54,898 nt of DNA, from positions 1-54,898 of the forward strand of contig JANWZE010000047.1 of assembly GCA_025054955.1 (NCBI GenBank), written 5' to 3'. Position 1 is the first letter of the stretch. Each line of letters begins with the position of its first letter. The DNA comes from Blastocatellia bacterium. Lineage in GTDB: Bacteria; Acidobacteriota; Blastocatellia; HR10; J050. The notes beneath the pieces are model-generated. The model searched no databases. It saw only the letters and a program-made list of their open reading frames with translations, and was not told the DNA's origin. Position numbers and translations under genes: made by a program. Shown here in pieces: positions 3,517 to 9,492 of this stretch.

Positions 3517-4992
3517 ATGAGATTTCCTGTGATCAAAGCTGTCTCCTACGCGTTGGCTCATACGCCGAATCTGGTGCGCTATGGCTCGAAGCCGGAGCGT
3601 GAATTGCGGAAAGAGCCGAGCATGATTGAACAGATAGATCGGCATCTTCGCACGTATGAAGAAGCGGTTGCCTATCCGCCCAATCAAGTCTTCATCGGCA
3701 ATATGCCGCCAGAGGCCCTCTGGGATACGGCGCGACCATGGTGGAAGCAAACAGGCGCCGCTCTGCGATTCGGGCCTTATGGTGAGATCATGCCTGAAGA
3801 CGAGCTCCTGGGTTTGCTTCGTCTGGCTGACGAGTTCGATCTGATTTGGCTGGAGCAGTCGTTTGTCGAGCAGGTTGCTGAAAAGTTGGCCGGCCACCCG
3901 TTGTTTCACCCGGATGAGGTCAAGCGGCTGGGAGCTGGTCATGCGCCGGAGGCGATTCAAGCTCGTGTGACGCAGGAAGGGGCTTTGCCGTTTTATCTGG
4001 ATGGGCAGATTGTGGGTTGTATTGCGCCGGGCCATGATGAAGACCCGTTTTTAACACCGACGATTTTGCTGGAGAATCTCGCCTGCAAAGCAACAGGGGT
4101 GCTAGCCATGCGCTGGTTGCTGCAAGCGTATCACTGTGATCAGATCAACCCGCTCACCATCGAGTATGTGATCAATACAGGCGAGGAAGCAGTTGGCGAC
4201 CGCTATCAACGCGGCGCCGGCAATCTGGCCAAAGCGATGGCTGAGTTAGCCGGTTGCCGCAACAGCACGGGCAGCGATCTCAAGGCGTTTTGCTGTGGCC
4301 CGATTCACGGCGTAATCGTGGCCGGCGGATTAGTTCAATCGGGGATTTTTCAGCAGGTGTTAGTTGTTGGCGGCGGTGCGTTGGGCAAACTTGGGATGAA
4401 GTTTCGCGGCCACCTTGCCCATGACATGCCGATTTTGGAAGACGTTCTGGGTAGTTTCGCGATTTTGATCGGGCCGGATGACGGTTTCAATCCCGTCATC
4501 CGCTTGGACGCAATTGGCAAGCATGATATTCGGTATGGGGGCTCGGCACAGGCTATTGCTCAGGCGCTGGTTGTCGAGCCGTTGAGCAAGCTGGGGCGAA
4601 CGATCCCTGAGGTCGAGCGGTATGCTGTCGAGCTGCACAATCCCGAAGTGACGGAACCCGCCGGCAGCGGGAATGTGCCGCAACACAATTACCGCGTCAT
4701 TGCCGGTTTGGCTGCGTTGCGCAAGGAGCTGCCGCGAGACGCTGTCAACAGTTTTGAGCGGACGCATGGGCTGCCGGGCTTTTCGCCGACGCAAGGACAT
4801 GTGCCATCGGCTGTGCCTTATCTAGGGCATGCGCGCGATGCGATGCTCAGTGGCTCGTTGCGCTCGGCGATGTTTATCGGCAAAGGCAGTTTGTTTCTCG
4901 GCAAGATGACCAATCTGGCCGATGGCATGTCGTTCATTCTGGAGGCGCAGGCGCCAGATACATCACACAGGCGGAGTGATCACGATGATTGA
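3517..4992 (+). CDS. grdC: Glycine/sarcosine/betaine reductase component C, beta subunit (GrdC-like)
   Basis: A 491-residue GrdC homologue. In clostridial glycine reductase, protein C takes the Se-carboxymethyl group from GrdA, forms an acetyl thioester on itself and passes it on to phosphate with GrdD. The N terminus MRFPVIKAVSYALAHTPNL matches the family, and the protein has the FabH/thiolase-like fold segments. Cys259 and Cys260, in DLKAFCCGPIHG, align with the conserved acyl-accepting cysteine region. I chose ATG 3517 because homology begins there; a longer open frame reaches back to 3424 but its extra 31 residues look non-family. No ribosome-binding site is evident, and GTG 3511 is another option. 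The 3' end overlaps the thioredoxin gene by 8 bp. No grdD partner follows, which is unusual. Confidence 0.9.
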   Translation: MRFPVIKAVSYALAHTPNLVRYGSKPERELRKEPSMIEQIDRHLRTYEEAVAYPPNQVFIGNMPPEALWDTARPWWKQTGAALRFGPYGEIMPEDELLGLLRLADEFDLIWLEQSFVEQVAEKLAGHPLFHPDEVKRLGAGHAPEAIQARVTQEGALPFYLDGQIVGCIAPGHDEDPFLTPTILLENLACKATGVLAMRWLLQAYHCDQINPLTIEYVINTGEEAVGDRYQRGAGNLAKAMAELAGCRNSTGSDLKAFCCGPIHGVIVAGGLVQSGIFQQVLVVGGGALGKLGMKFRGHLAHDMPILEDVLGSFAILIGPDDGFNPVIRLDAIGKHDIRYGGSAQAIAQALVVEPLSKLGRTIPEVERYAVELHNPEVTEPAGSGNVPQHNYRVIAGLAALRKELPRDAVNSFERTHGLPGFSPTQGHVPSAVPYLGHARDAMLSGSLRSAMFIGKGSLFLGKMTNLADGMSFILEAQAPDTSHRRSDHDD

Positions 4993-5314
4993 TGTGACCA
5001 GAGAGACATTTGAGCAAGAAGTCAAACAGGCATCCAAGCCGGTCTTGGTTGACTTTTGGGGTCCCCGATGTGGTCCCTGTTTAGCCTTGATGCCACTGGT
5101 TGAAGAGCTGTCTACTCGTTTCTCGGAGCAATTGAAAGTGGTGAAAGTGAACGCTCAAGAGAACCGCAAGCTGTGTGTCGAGTTGAAAGTGTTGTCGCTC
5201 CCCACATTTCTGTTTTTCAATCGTGGTCAGGAGCAAGCCCGGCTCAGCGGCGATATTCACGCTGATGCGCTGCAACCGTGGGTCGAGGCGCAACTGGGCA
5301 ATCTCATGGAGTGA
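4985..5314 (+). CDS. Thioredoxin of the glycine reductase type
   Basis: A 109-residue thioredoxin. The active site is CGPC (Cys29 and Cys32) in the context DFWGPRCGPC, where the usual Trp-Cys is replaced by a longer Trp-Gly-Pro-Arg-Cys. That variant is typical of thioredoxins encoded beside glycine reductase, which re-reduce the selenoprotein after each turnover. The cis-proline segment SLPTFLFF is present. The start at 4985 overlaps the end of grdC by 8 bp, so translation is likely coupled; a longer in-frame extension to 4922 lies wholly inside grdC and has no support. No thioredoxin reductase gene is nearby, whereas clostridial operons usually include one. Confidence 0.93.
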   Translation: MIDVTRETFEQEVKQASKPVLVDFWGPRCGPCLALMPLVEELSTRFSEQLKVVKVNAQENRKLCVELKVLSLPTFLFFNRGQEQARLSGDIHADALQPWVEAQLGNLME

Positions 5315-5335
5315 ATAACAGGAGGTCAAGGCACT

Positions 5336-5800
5336 ATGCAACTGGCTGGAAAGAAAGTGATCGTGCTCGGTGAACGCGACGGCGTGCAAGGCACGGCCTT
5401 GAGTGAATGCGTTAAGGCGGCTGGCGGCGAAGTCGTGCTGGCGATCAACCAGTGCTTCGTCTGAACGGCCGCCGGCGCTATGGACCTTGAGGATCAAGGT
5501 GCGATCAAAGCTAAAATTGAAGAGATTGGCAGCGAAGATGTGGTAGTCATTCTCGGCTCGCCCGATCCTGATGCCGCCGAGATGTATGCCGAGACGGTGA
5601 CGGTGGGTGATCCGACGTATGCTGGTCCGTTGGCCGGCGTTGCGTTGAGACTGCCCGTTTATTGCATCTTCGAGCCGGAGATCAAACAGCAGATTCCGCC
5701 AGACGTCTACAGCGAGCAGGTGGAGTTGATGGAAATGGTCTTGCCCAGTGAAGCCATCTCGGCGCGGGTCAAGGCCGTGCGCGAGCGAGCGCAACTCTGA
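5336..5800 (+). CDS. grdA: Glycine/sarcosine/betaine reductase selenoprotein A (GrdA), selenocysteine at TGA 5462-5464
   Basis: A 154-residue protein if the in-frame TGA at 5462-5464 (codon 43) is read as selenocysteine. The surrounding peptide is CFVUTAAGAMDLE, the GrdA signature, with Cys40 and Sec43 forming the redox pair. GrdA carries the Se-carboxymethyl intermediate between protein B and protein C and is reduced by thioredoxin. ATG 5336 is preceded by GGAGGT at 5321-5326, a strong ribosome-binding site 9 nt away. The total length is close to the roughly 158 residues of clostridial GrdA. Conventional gene callers would stop at codon 42 or report only the downstream part. The ACCTTGA-GGA-TCAAGGT hairpin at 5484-5500 is a plausible SECIS element. 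Gaps to neighbours are 21 bp and 15 bp. Confidence 0.96.
5462..5500 (+). promoter_or_regulatory. Selenocysteine TGA codon with putative bSECIS hairpin (grdA)
   Basis: The TGA at 5462-5464 is followed by a perfect 7-bp stem, 5484-5490 pairing with 5494-5500, closing a GGA loop at 5491-5493. The first loop G lies 27 nt after the TGA, inside the 16-37 nt window known for bacterial SECIS elements. A loop starting with GG or GU is what SelB recognises in characterised cases. It matches in form the hairpin after the grdB TGA. Confidence 0.75.
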
Positions 5801-5815
5801 TGGTTGGAGGTGAGC

Positions 5816-7144
5816 ATGTCCAAGCAAATTCGCGTTGTGCATTACCTGAATCAATTTTTCGGCGGTATCGGCGGTGAAGAGAAAGCCGATACACCGTTAC
5901 AAGTGCGCGATGGGCCGGTCGGTCCCGGACTTGGGTTGCAGAAAGCGCTGGGCGACCGCGGCCAGGTCGTTGCCACGTTCATTTGTGGCGATAATTTTTT
6001 CAGCAGTCACACGGATGCTGTGCTTGCAGAGCTTGAGCAAGTTGTCCCAGCTTATCAGCCGGATGTGCTGGTGGCCGGGCCAGCGTTCAATGCCGGGCGA
6101 TACGGATTTGCCTGCGGGCAGGTCGGCAAAGCACTGAGCGAACGATTGAACATTCGCGCAGTGACGGCGATGTATCCGGAGAATCCGGCCGTTGAGAATC
6201 ATCGCAGAGTGAGCGGCTTGTGGATTCTGCCGACGAGCGACCGCGCTGGCGACATGCCAAAGGTCTTACCCAAGCTCGCCGATTGGGCTGTTCGGCTAGG
6301 TCGCGGTGAACCGATTGGCCCGGCCAAGCTCGAAGGCTATATCCCCACAGGCCAGCGACGATTGCAGATGACCGATACGCCGGGCTACGAGCGAGCGTTT
6401 CGCATGCTCATGGCCAAGCTCAATGGAGAACCATTCGAGACGGAAATTCCTATCGAGCAATTTGAAATGGTGCCGCCGGCGCCGCCGCTGAAAAACGTGA
6501 AGACAGCGCGATTGGCTCTGATCACCACCTCCGGTCTGGTGCCCAGGGGCAATCCGGACAAATTCAGAATGTTCAACGCGACTCAGTGGCGCCAGTATCG
6601 CTTGCCCGATGCGCCGACGCTTCGCGGCCAGGATTGGGAGGTCATTCATGGAGGGTTCAATACAGCCTATGCTCAGCAGAACCCGCATCTGGTTCTTCCG
6701 CTGGATGTGTTACGCGAGAAAGCAGGAGAGGAGTTTGGTCGCTTGCATGATGAGTTCTATTCGATCACAGGCGTGGGAACTAGTTTGAAAGTGGCTCGGC
6801 AAGCTGGCCAACAGATAGCCGCCTCGCTCCGCGAAGCCGGTGTTGACGCGGCGTTGTTGGTAGCGACCTGAGGGACCTGCACGCGCTGCGGCGCAGCGCT
6901 CTCCAAAGAATTGGACAGAATTGGTATGCCAGTGGTCATCATCTCAGCGATGGATCAACTTGCCCAGCAAGTCGGGGCTGCTCGCGTGGTTGTGGGACGA
7001 AAGATTCCGCATCCGTGCGGCGATCCGAACCTGCCGCCTCCATTCGATATTCAAGTTCGACGCGAGATCATCCAGACGGCGCTTCGGGCGCTGGAGACGC
7101 CGGTCACCGCGCCAACGATTTTCCGGCCTGAGCATGCCATCTGA
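5816..7144 (+). CDS. grdB: Glycine/sarcosine/betaine reductase component B selenoprotein (GrdB/GrdF/GrdH-like), selenocysteine at TGA 6869-6871
   Basis: A 442-residue protein when the in-frame TGA at 6869-6871 (codon 352) is read as selenocysteine. The context VATUGTCTRCGAAL matches the UGTCTRCG centre of GrdB, GrdF and GrdH, and the N terminus has the family segment VRDGPVGPGLGLQKAL. In known systems the Sec attacks the substrate held as a Schiff base on the pyruvoyl partner GrdE, GrdG or GrdI, releasing ammonia or an amine and passing the carboxymethyl group to GrdA. No such partner is encoded in the window, so which amine, or other alpha-substituted acid, is cleaved is unknown. ATG 5816 has GGAGG at 5806-5810. 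The 91 residues after the TGA keep family homology, so this is not a truncated gene. Confidence 0.95.
6869..6899 (+). promoter_or_regulatory. Selenocysteine TGA codon with putative bSECIS hairpin (grdB)
   Basis: After the TGA at 6869-6871, bases 6883-6889 (GCGCTGC) pair perfectly with 6893-6899 (GCAGCGC) around a GGC loop at 6890-6892. The first loop G is 19 nt beyond the TGA. Stem length (7 bp), loop size (3 nt) and the GG loop start all repeat the grdA arrangement, although the stem sequences differ. Confidence 0.75.
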
Positions 7145-7213
7145 GCGTCAGCAACTCTGTTAATCAATGGCGCGCGCTACCTGTGAGCAGTGAGCAGCGC
7201 GCGGAGAAAAACA

Positions 7214-8023
7214 ATGAGCAAGACACCAGTGTTTACCAACAGACGCATGTATCGGTTGTTTGGCGAGGACGGCCGCAGCTTGGTGGTCGCTATGGATCAT
7301 GGCGGTGGATTGAATGTCTATCCATCGCTGTCTGACCCTGGCCAGGTCATCGCCGCCGTGGTGGCGGGCGGCGCTGATGCGGTGTTAACAACGCCGGGGA
7401 TACTCAAGCATTTCTATCACCAGTTGAAATCGGTTGGCGTCATTCTGCGTGTGGATGGCGGCAGTTCTGAGCTCGAAGGCAGCAGTGGAGACTACCGGCT
7501 GCTCTACTCAGTCGAAGATGCGCTGCGGTTGGGCGCCGATGCGGTGGCCTGCATGGGATTTCCTGGAAGCCCATTGGAAGCGCAAACATTGGGAAATATC
7601 GCAACGCTGGCGGCGCAGTGCCAGAGATGGGGCATGCCGTTGATGCCGGAGATGATCCCCGGTGGTTTCACCAACTGGAGCTTACGCACGGTGGAAGCCA
7701 CACGCTTGGCTGTCAGGATTGGGATTGAGCTGGGCGCTGATTTCATCAAGACGGAGTTTGTCGGCTCCGTTGATGAGTTTCGTTCGGTGGTTGCGCATAG
7801 TTATCGTCCTGTGTTGGTGCTGGGTGGCAGCCGCAAGGATGATGATCGCGCGTTGCTGAGCATGGTCAAGCAGGCGATGGACGCAGGCGCCAGCGGCGTG
7901 GTGATCGGGCGAAACGTGTGGGGTCATCCGCGACCGCAAGCGATGGTGACAGCTTTGCATCGAATTATTCACGGTCAGGCTTCCGTCCAGCAGGCGCTTG
8001 AAGTGTTGGAGTCAAACAGATGA
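7214..8023 (+). CDS. Class I aldolase of the DhnA/LsrF/FbaB family
   Basis: A 269-residue TIM-barrel aldolase of the DhnA family, which includes archaeal-type fructose-bisphosphate aldolase FbaB and the LsrF thiolase. Visible hallmarks are AMDHGG near residue 27, the GADAVLTTPG segment, and Lys179 in ADFIKTEF, expected to form the Schiff base. The C-terminal phosphate-binding region GASGVVIGRNVWGHP is intact, so the substrate is probably a sugar phosphate. Its direct coupling to an FGGY kinase (4-bp overlap) suggests that the kinase makes the phosphorylated substrate and this enzyme splits it. ATG 7214 follows a GGAGA at a suitable distance; a longer frame from 7190 is less likely. The gap from grdB is 69 bp, the second widest within the operon. 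Confidence 0.82.
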   Translation: MSKTPVFTNRRMYRLFGEDGRSLVVAMDHGGGLNVYPSLSDPGQVIAAVVAGGADAVLTTPGILKHFYHQLKSVGVILRVDGGSSELEGSSGDYRLLYSVEDALRLGADAVACMGFPGSPLEAQTLGNIATLAAQCQRWGMPLMPEMIPGGFTNWSLRTVEATRLAVRIGIELGADFIKTEFVGSVDEFRSVVAHSYRPVLVLGGSRKDDDRALLSMVKQAMDAGASGVVIGRNVWGHPRPQAMVTALHRIIHGQASVQQALEVLESNR

Positions 8024-9492
8024 ACCATCGGCACCTGTTGTTGGCGATTGATCTGGGCACGTCGGGCGTGAAAGCGGGCGTATTCGCCAGCGATGGCTCA
8101 CTGGTAGCGCAATCGGGCGTCGGGTACGAGACGCTGACGCCACATCCGGGCTGGGCTGAGCAGGAGCCGCAGGCATGGTGGGACGCCACGTGTCGCGCGG
8201 TCAGTCAATGCGTTGCTCAGTGCGATGCCACGCGGATCGAAGGCATTGGCCTGACGGGGTTGTCGCCTTCACTGGTCTGTGTGGATGAGCGGGGCGAGCC
8301 GGTGCGCCCGGCGCTTATATGGTCGGACCGACGAGTCGCACAGGAGATCAGCGAGCTGACGGAGGCGCTCGGCGCGCACTTATCATTCACACCGCTGCCG
8401 CGCCTGCTGTGGCTCAAGCGACACGAACCAAATTCCTATGAACGGACGCGCTGGGTCTTCGACTCATTCGATTATCTGAGTTTCAAAATGACCGGGCAGG
8501 CGGCTAGCTTTTGCCCCGTCGGGGATCAACTGGCCTGGTCGCCATCTGATGCGCTCAGCGCCGGTCTTGCGTTAGATAAATTTCCGTCTCGCGTCTGTAA
8601 GCTCGGAGAGCATGTCGGCGGCGTGCTGCCGGCAGTGGCCGCTCAGGTAGGGCTGCCCAGCGGATTGCCGGTGATCGCCGGAACGATTGATTCATTCGCC
8701 GCCTGGATTGGCACGGCCACGACCCGTCCGGGTGTCGTCTGCAACACGGTCGGCACATCTGATGGCGTGGCGCTCGTCTGGGACCAAGCGCTGGTTGATC
8801 CGCAAAACCGACTGCAATGCATGCCGCATCTGACCGGCCGCCATTGGATCGTCGGCGGCGCAATGTCAACCGGCGGAATTTTGTTGGAGTGGTTTGTTCG
8901 CCATTTCTACAATCACGAGCCGGACTCATTTGGCACGGCCATTCGTGAAGCCGAGGACGTATCGGTCGGCGCTGACGGCTTGCTCGCTTTGCCATATCTG
9001 GTGGGTGAACGCTCGCCTATCTTCGACCATCATGCTCGCGCGGTCTTCTTCGGCATCAGTGAGACACATGGGCGGGCGCATTTTGCTCGTGCTGTGTTGG
9101 AATCGGTCGCGTTGGCCGTGCGTGATGTGTGCCACGTGATTGAAGAAGTCGGCGGCGCTATTGACGAAATCCGCGTCGCCGGTGGCGGCGCCAAAAGCGA
9201 CTTGTGGAGTCAAATCAAGGCCGACGTGGTTGGCGTTCCTGTGCTCGTGCCGCAGATTGGCGATTCCGGCTTGCTGGGCGCCGCGATCATCGCCGGCTGG
9301 GGCGTTGGCCGCTTTACCGATTTGTCTGAAGCGGCTGAGGCAATGGTGAAGTTTCGCGCCGTCATGGAGCCACGTGTGTCTCACCATGAGATGTATACCA
9401 AGCTGTTTGAACTGTACCGCAGGTTGTATCAGCACTTGAAAGACGACTTTGTCACCGTGAGTCAACTGCTCAGACCAGAGGAGCGTCATTGA
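8020..9492 (+). CDS. FGGY-family carbohydrate kinase (xylulokinase/LsrK-like)
   Basis: A 490-residue two-domain sugar kinase. The N-terminal phosphate-binding loop is LLAIDLGTSGVKAGVF. GWAEQEPQAWW is the typical FGGY segment that follows. The catalytic aspartate is in GTIDSFAAWIG, followed by VGTSDGVAL and the adenosine-binding VAGGGAKSDLWSQIKAD near residue 390. Members phosphorylate xylulose, ribulose, erythritol, glycerol or autoinducer-2; the sugar used here cannot be told from motifs. The start ATG overlaps the aldolase stop by 4 bp (ATGA), and its own stop overlaps the aldehyde dehydrogenase start by 1 bp, so the three genes are translationally coupled and probably act in succession. 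Confidence 0.88.
   Translation: MNHRHLLLAIDLGTSGVKAGVFASDGSLVAQSGVGYETLTPHPGWAEQEPQAWWDATCRAVSQCVAQCDATRIEGIGLTGLSPSLVCVDERGEPVRPALIWSDRRVAQEISELTEALGAHLSFTPLPRLLWLKRHEPNSYERTRWVFDSFDYLSFKMTGQAASFCPVGDQLAWSPSDALSAGLALDKFPSRVCKLGEHVGGVLPAVAAQVGLPSGLPVIAGTIDSFAAWIGTATTRPGVVCNTVGTSDGVALVWDQALVDPQNRLQCMPHLTGRHWIVGGAMSTGGILLEWFVRHFYNHEPDSFGTAIREAEDVSVGADGLLALPYLVGERSPIFDHHARAVFFGISETHGRAHFARAVLESVALAVRDVCHVIEEVGGAIDEIRVAGGGAKSDLWSQIKADVVGVPVLVPQIGDSGLLGAAIIAGWGVGRFTDLSEAAEAMVKFRAVMEPRVSHHEMYTKLFELYRRLYQHLKDDFVTVSQLLRPEERH

Follow-up and report, generated by a model that had tools for sequence, protein, structure and literature searches.

A TGA-coded selenocysteine in a GrdB-family protein and its GrdD-less gene cluster in Blastocatellia

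Background

A gene of the GrdB family in a Blastocatellia bacterium (Acidobacteriota) carries an in-frame TGA, which raises the questions of whether this codon is read as selenocysteine (Sec) and what reaction the resulting protein might serve. The gene, here called grdB1, lies in contig JANWZE010000047.1 of assembly GCA_025054955.1, and "the window" refers to the whole 54,898-nucleotide stretch of that contig that was analysed. TGA-coded GrdB as such has long been known, and GrdD is the acetyl-phosphate-forming subunit of glycine reductase. Our literature search found no earlier report of a Sec-coded GrdB in this lineage. In its passages on Acidobacteria, PMC1794560 counts four selenoproteins in three families without naming them.

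The protein-coding features considered here are as follows; positions are those of the window unless another locus is given.

3517..4992, + strand: grdC, component C subunit beta, thiolase-like (NF040746, 641 bits, cut-off 450), with a Cys in KAFCCGP
4985..5314, + strand: thioredoxin of the cluster, CGPC
5336..5800, + strand: grdA, selenoprotein A, 154 amino acids, Sec43 encoded by TGA 5462-5464 in CFV-U-TAAG (NF040748, 210 bits, cut-off 130; PF04723)
5816..7144, + strand: grdB1, GrdB-family selenoprotein, 442 amino acids, Sec352, stop codon TGA 7142-7144 (TIGR01918, PF07355)
6869..6871, + strand: TGA codon for Sec352 of grdB1, motif ATUGTCTRCGA
7190..8023, + strand: DeoC/LacD-family aldolase, directly downstream of grdB1
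8020..9492, + strand: FGGY-family kinase, overlapping the aldolase stop codon
9489..10937, + strand: aldehyde dehydrogenase, best NCBIfam match TIGR01804 (BADH)
L048:9624-10949 (same genome, contig C1): grdB2, another GrdB with a TGA-coded Sec (TSN-U-ATCSRCG), flanked by two GrdE-family genes

Results and discussion

The in-frame TGA of grdB1

Within the frame at 5816-7144 the only TGA before the stop is codon 352, which sits in LLVAT-U-GTCTRCGA when translated by readthrough. In profile searches the readthrough protein scores 437.5 bits against TIGR01918 (cut-off 65.45, residues 6-437) and 415.5 bits against PF07355 (cut-off 22). The predicted Sec occupies the first position of the UxxCxxC centre (UGTCTRCG), in a column that is invariant. 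An AlphaFold2 model of the readthrough product has a pLDDT of 91, with the C-terminal part mostly above 90, and places Sec352 between a strand (345-350) and a helix (353-368). A sequence search of the PDB with the protein returned no match, and Foldseek matches to the model are generic and Rossmann-like, with a query TM of at most about 0.24, so the structure is silent on the substrate of GrdB1.

Comparison with relatives indicates that the codon and the sequence that follows it are maintained. TGA stands at the Sec column in each of the 31 other GrdB sequences with coverage there (32/32 with that of the window) and in 15 of 15 other GrdA sequences (16/16 with the window's), and these independent assemblies concur. 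Between grdB1 and its counterpart in another Blastocatellia metagenome-assembled genome (MAG; locus L019), pN/pS is 0.28 after the TGA and 0.34 before it, and third positions dominate the substitutions past the TGA (20, 9 and 48 at the first, second and third codon positions). Judged from these substitutions, purifying selection acts alike on the codons 3' and 5' of the TGA. The original prediction stated that 91 codons after the TGA keep family sequence; the retention is borne out, although the number of sense codons is 90, and 91 is reached by counting the stop.

The machinery for Sec insertion is present in the genome, which is 99.5% complete in 152 contigs. It comprises selC, a tRNA-Sec with anticodon TCA (68.7 bits, contig C94), selB (354 bits, C61), selA (591 bits, C74) and selD (380 bits, C44). 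Absence of selB or selC had been named beforehand as grounds for abandoning the Sec interpretation; since both genes are there, that objection fails. The selD gene (L062; G000:C44:15973-16899) itself has one in-frame TGA near its start, as do the selD genes of two sister genomes, and SelD is thus probably a selenoprotein too. Global recoding of TGA was considered and rejected: 28 of 36 ORFs sampled in the window end in TGA, more than in any other stop, and the code is therefore standard.

A covarying hairpin downstream of the codon

Two hairpins lie 3' of the Sec codons in the window.

6883..6899, + strand: SECIS-like hairpin of grdB1, 7-bp stem 6883-6889/6893-6899, loop GGC at 6890-6892, TGA-to-loop spacing 18 nucleotides
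5484..5500, + strand: candidate SECIS hairpin of grdA, 7-bp stem, loop GGA, 26 nucleotides after the TGA, from a single-sequence fold only

The grdB1 element, with its 7-bp stem, GGN loop and 18-nucleotide spacing, fits the geometry modelled for bacterial SECIS elements in PMC13188914. Over 31 distinct sequences, 95.4% of cells in the alignment are paired, and in three of the seven pairs both partners have changed (UA/CG/AU at columns 18-28, UA/AU at columns 19-27 and UA/GC/CG at columns 15-31). The covariation score is 0.212 versus 0.050 for shuffles, none of 500 of which reach the observed value, and slid partners give at most 0.093. The window's own hairpin has a competing fold once the UGA bases are included, and when single sequences 3' of the TGA are folded, their energies do not improve on shuffles; the case for a SECIS element rests on covariation and geometry. 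Rfam model SECIS_1 (RF00031) has no match in the genome or in any of 14 control genomes, which makes that search uninformative.

Standard ORF calling does close grdB1 at 6871, as would suit a true stop in a decaying pseudogene or a sequencing error, with the 3' part untranslated, but this reading is in practice already refuted and its probability is close to nil, given the identical TGA in all relatives, the equally low pN/pS past it, the covarying hairpin, the same kind of TGA in the paralogue grdB2 and in grdA, and the complete Sec machinery. The prediction that codon 352 encodes Sec at the redox centre of the GrdB/F/H proteins is thus upheld by conserved codon, hairpin and machinery together. 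So is its observation that two neighbouring genes each have a TGA exactly at the Sec site (6869-6871 in grdB1, 5462-5464 in grdA), and its judgement that sequencing error or decay is unlikely, which we would sharpen to very unlikely for grdB1.

Gene cluster and neighbours

In the window genome, grdC, the thioredoxin gene, grdA and grdB1 (3517-7144) are apart from a second group consisting of grdE1, grdB2 and grdE2 (L048:7915-12250, contig C1), and each group is internal to its contig. The two groups are joined in the Blastocatellia MAG containing L019, where grdC, the thioredoxin gene, grdA, grdB1, grdE1, grdB2 and grdE2 are contiguous, with the aldolase gene further on. The same gene order is seen in the Acidobacteria MAG J050 across two contigs (L129, L020), where the aldolase also lies downstream of the cluster. 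The gene for the GrdE partner adjoins grdB in two sister genomes, and in the window genome it is on C1. The genome has one Sec-containing GrdA and one GrdC for two pairs of Sec-containing GrdB and GrdE, an arrangement that suggests two related substrates for the two B pairs. Misbinning of the cluster was considered and is rejected as unlikely because sister genomes of the family carry it.

The aldolase, FGGY-family kinase and aldehyde dehydrogenase genes downstream of grdB1 occur in matching order in a sister genome (G001; kinase and dehydrogenase at L130). On contig C1 the neighbours include genes for an M20 peptidase, a cyclase-family protein, an amidohydrolase, EamA transporters and an allophanate-hydrolase C-terminal-like protein. 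These catabolic neighbours suggest that an amide or N-substituted compound is degraded, and they do not name the compound.

Further details of these loci were noted. On C1, grdE1 comes immediately after a glyoxalase-like gene. A stand-alone protein of 141 amino acids that resembles the allophanate-hydrolase C-terminal domain (PF21986, 138 bits) is encoded between grdE1 and grdB2 (L048:9206-9631); at L019 and L020, grdB2 comes almost directly after grdE1. Positions 1-62 of the window resemble the 3' part of a tRNA gene, apparently Lys with anticodon TTT, that would be cut by the contig edge and is not reported by ARAGORN.

Absence of GrdD and of the pyruvoyl cysteine

GrdD was not found in the genome, although its division into 152 contigs makes a missed grdD conceivable: the best match scores 20.9 bits (cut-off 350) and, by inference, is probably PlsX, and the same search gives 603 bits in a canonical Anaerophilus genome. 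GrdA and GrdC occur without GrdD in seven further genomes, namely two Blastocatellia and MAGs labelled Betaproteobacteria, Dehalococcoidia, Rokuibacteriota, Nitrospinota and Gammaproteobacteria. Two additional GrdB-bearing Chloroflexota MAGs are left out of the count because no GrdA or GrdC was found in them. A betaproteobacterial MAG (L124) has one GrdA, one GrdC and two GrdB/GrdE pairs, without GrdD; in its two GrdB proteins one or both of the UxxCxxC Cys residues are missing (UGTSTRC, UGSGTRS).

The Cys of GrdC is kept in 21 of 21 sequences that cover the position. The GrdE proteins differ at the Cys that forms the pyruvoyl group, which is Cys242 in GrdE of C. difficile (PMC9908766). At the position of this Cys in the clostridial sequence SACDKNTTY, GrdE1 has Ala and GrdE2 has Ser, and Chloroflexota proteins have a deletion. 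The Cys is retained at L022 and L047, so there is no strict coupling between loss of this Cys and lack of GrdD. Because FarE and the betaine-type GrdI are also reported to be without this Cys (PMC10838667), a Cys-less GrdE is not new by itself.

Substrate class

The GrdB1 system shares many features with the known GrdB, GrdF and GrdH systems (TIGR01918/PF07355): homology over the full length, TGA-coded Sec in UxxCxxC, a GrdE-family partner, common Sec-containing GrdA and GrdC, and a thioredoxin in the cluster. It differs in that GrdB1 falls under every substrate-specific curated cut-off, fails the published motifs and belongs to a separate clade, and in that the system is without GrdD and its GrdE partner is without the pyruvoyl Cys.

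The motifs concerned are those published for glycine and sarcosine GrdB in PMC9751293. Ten canonical loci match the glycine motif and three the sarcosine motif, and neither GrdB1 nor GrdB2 matches either one; at the glycine-motif sites GrdB1 reads IHGGFN...LVLPLD...ITGVGT. Its score is 407 bits against the glycine equivalog TIGR01917 (cut-off 602) and 454.7 bits against sarcosine GrdF (NF040794, cut-off 800). On the betaine GrdH model (NF040795, cut-off 775), GrdB1 scores 390.9 bits and GrdB2 434 bits, and both score higher on the sarcosine model. The name grdB used in the original prediction therefore holds for a GrdB-family protein B subunit, and is unsupported in the glycine-reductase sense.

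One or both GrdB/GrdE pairs might be a betaine reductase of the GrdH/GrdI type, given that GrdI is reported to be without the processing Cys (PMC10838667), as is GrdE1, and that the aldehyde dehydrogenase downstream has BADH as its best NCBIfam match. We consider this unlikely in view of the betaine-model scores, which are below both the cut-off and the scores on the sarcosine model. Moreover, the dehydrogenase scores 535 bits, below the BADH cut-off of 669, and is preceded by an aldolase and a sugar-type kinase, and there is no betaine transporter among the annotated neighbours.

A plain glycine reductase that converts glycine to acetyl phosphate, as in Stickland fermenters, would account for GrdA and GrdC scores that exceed curated cut-offs, a thioredoxin in the operon and the retained UxxCxxC and CxxU. 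The missing GrdD, a GrdE that has not kept the pyruvoyl Cys shown in C. difficile, the failed glycine motif and the low TIGR01917 score together make it a decidedly unlikely explanation. Environmental GrdBE of Lithacetigenota and Dehalococcoidia (PMC9751293) similarly extend Grd beyond classical Stickland fermenters, Chloroflexota included. That study retained only sequences with the GrdB motif, which it read as glycine reductases, whereas the window proteins fail the motif; the term GrdD is absent from its main text and loss of GrdD is not discussed there.

The fluoroacetate reductase FarB/FarE of Cloacibacillus porcorum MFA1 (PMC10838667) is similar in its Cys-less GrdE-type partner and in that an extra B-type pair feeds a common GrdA. 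A reductive dehalogenation enzyme of this kind might also be suggested by the MFS gene at 196-1479, which has similarity to oxalate/formate antiporters, as reported for farA. This assignment is nonetheless highly improbable, as the GrdE-type partners score just 119.7 and 126.4 bits on the FarE model (NF053623, cut-off 675), FarB is reported to be without the CxxC that GrdB1 keeps after Sec, and no radical-SAM gene is among the annotated neighbours. The host taxa and their oxidases differ as well.

Phylogeny and distribution

GrdB1 and GrdB2 form a sister pair (98/95) in the tree, within a clade that holds sequences from Chloroflexota, Rokuibacteriota, Nitrospinota and Betaproteobacteria. A 97/97 branch parts this clade from the side containing Bacillota, Synergistota and desulfobacterial proteins, with which gammaproteobacterial L047 groups. 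Of the 162 genomes of the class, three encode GrdA, and all three belong to one family. PF07355 matches occur in 95 of 396 genomes sampled across the phylum and exceed 400 bits only in the family of the window genome. The remaining matches in Acidobacteriota (for example, L075 and L082) are partial and below 55 bits, align with the profile in its C-terminal half and often lie in short frames of 145-200 amino acids; we did not count them as GrdB.

Heme-copper oxidase genes are present in the window genome and in six of six others tested. Such genes are unlike what is expected of strict anaerobes, and their presence is no proof of aerobic growth.

Proposed mechanism

We read the system as a Sec-dependent reductive cleavage of an alpha-substituted carboxylate, of which we infer both substrate and product. 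The chemistry, substrate, acyl acceptor and direction of electron flow given here are those that characterised members would lead one to expect. With the hairpin at 6883-6899 as the signal, SelB and tRNA-Sec would read the UGA at 6869-6871 as Sec, and GrdB1 would pair with a GrdE-type protein as protein B. By analogy, the Sec of protein B could attack the alpha carbon of a 2-substituted carboxylate, expelling the substituent, and a carboxymethyl-type group would be handed to Sec43 of GrdA. Reduction with electrons from thioredoxin would leave an acyl group bound as a thioester to the conserved GrdC Cys, from which it might pass to CoA, GrdC being thiolase-like, or be hydrolysed. Since GrdD is absent, the acyl product is probably released by a GrdD-independent route, and not as GrdD-made acetyl phosphate.

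We have high confidence in the core of this proposal, a Sec-coded GrdB-family protein B that would be decoded by SelB and tRNA-Sec through the hairpin, has a GrdE partner and probably releases its acyl product independently of GrdD. A broader proposal is tentative and, in our estimate, falls somewhat short of an even chance: that these proteins form a separate Grd branch in oxidase-bearing Acidobacteriota (Blastocatellia), Chloroflexota, Rokuibacteriota, Nitrospinota and Pseudomonadota, one that dispenses with GrdD and in most cases also with the pyruvoyl Cys. This branch might convert a non-glycine substrate to an acyl thioester or acyl-CoA, for carbon assimilation or detoxification and not for Stickland-type substrate-level phosphorylation.

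Conclusions

The Sec codon adds well-supported selenoproteins to this lineage, which standard annotation would truncate. A Sec codon in GrdB is known biology; what is new here is the GrdD-less, Cys-less Grd arrangement with two B pairs. If this reading of the system is right, Grd machinery would not be only a fermentation device of strict anaerobes, and its GrdD-less, mostly pyruvoyl-less form may handle other 2-substituted carboxylates in oxidase-bearing environmental bacteria. With these natural variants one could then test what becomes of the acyl thioester on GrdC and what purpose the GrdE pyruvoyl group serves.
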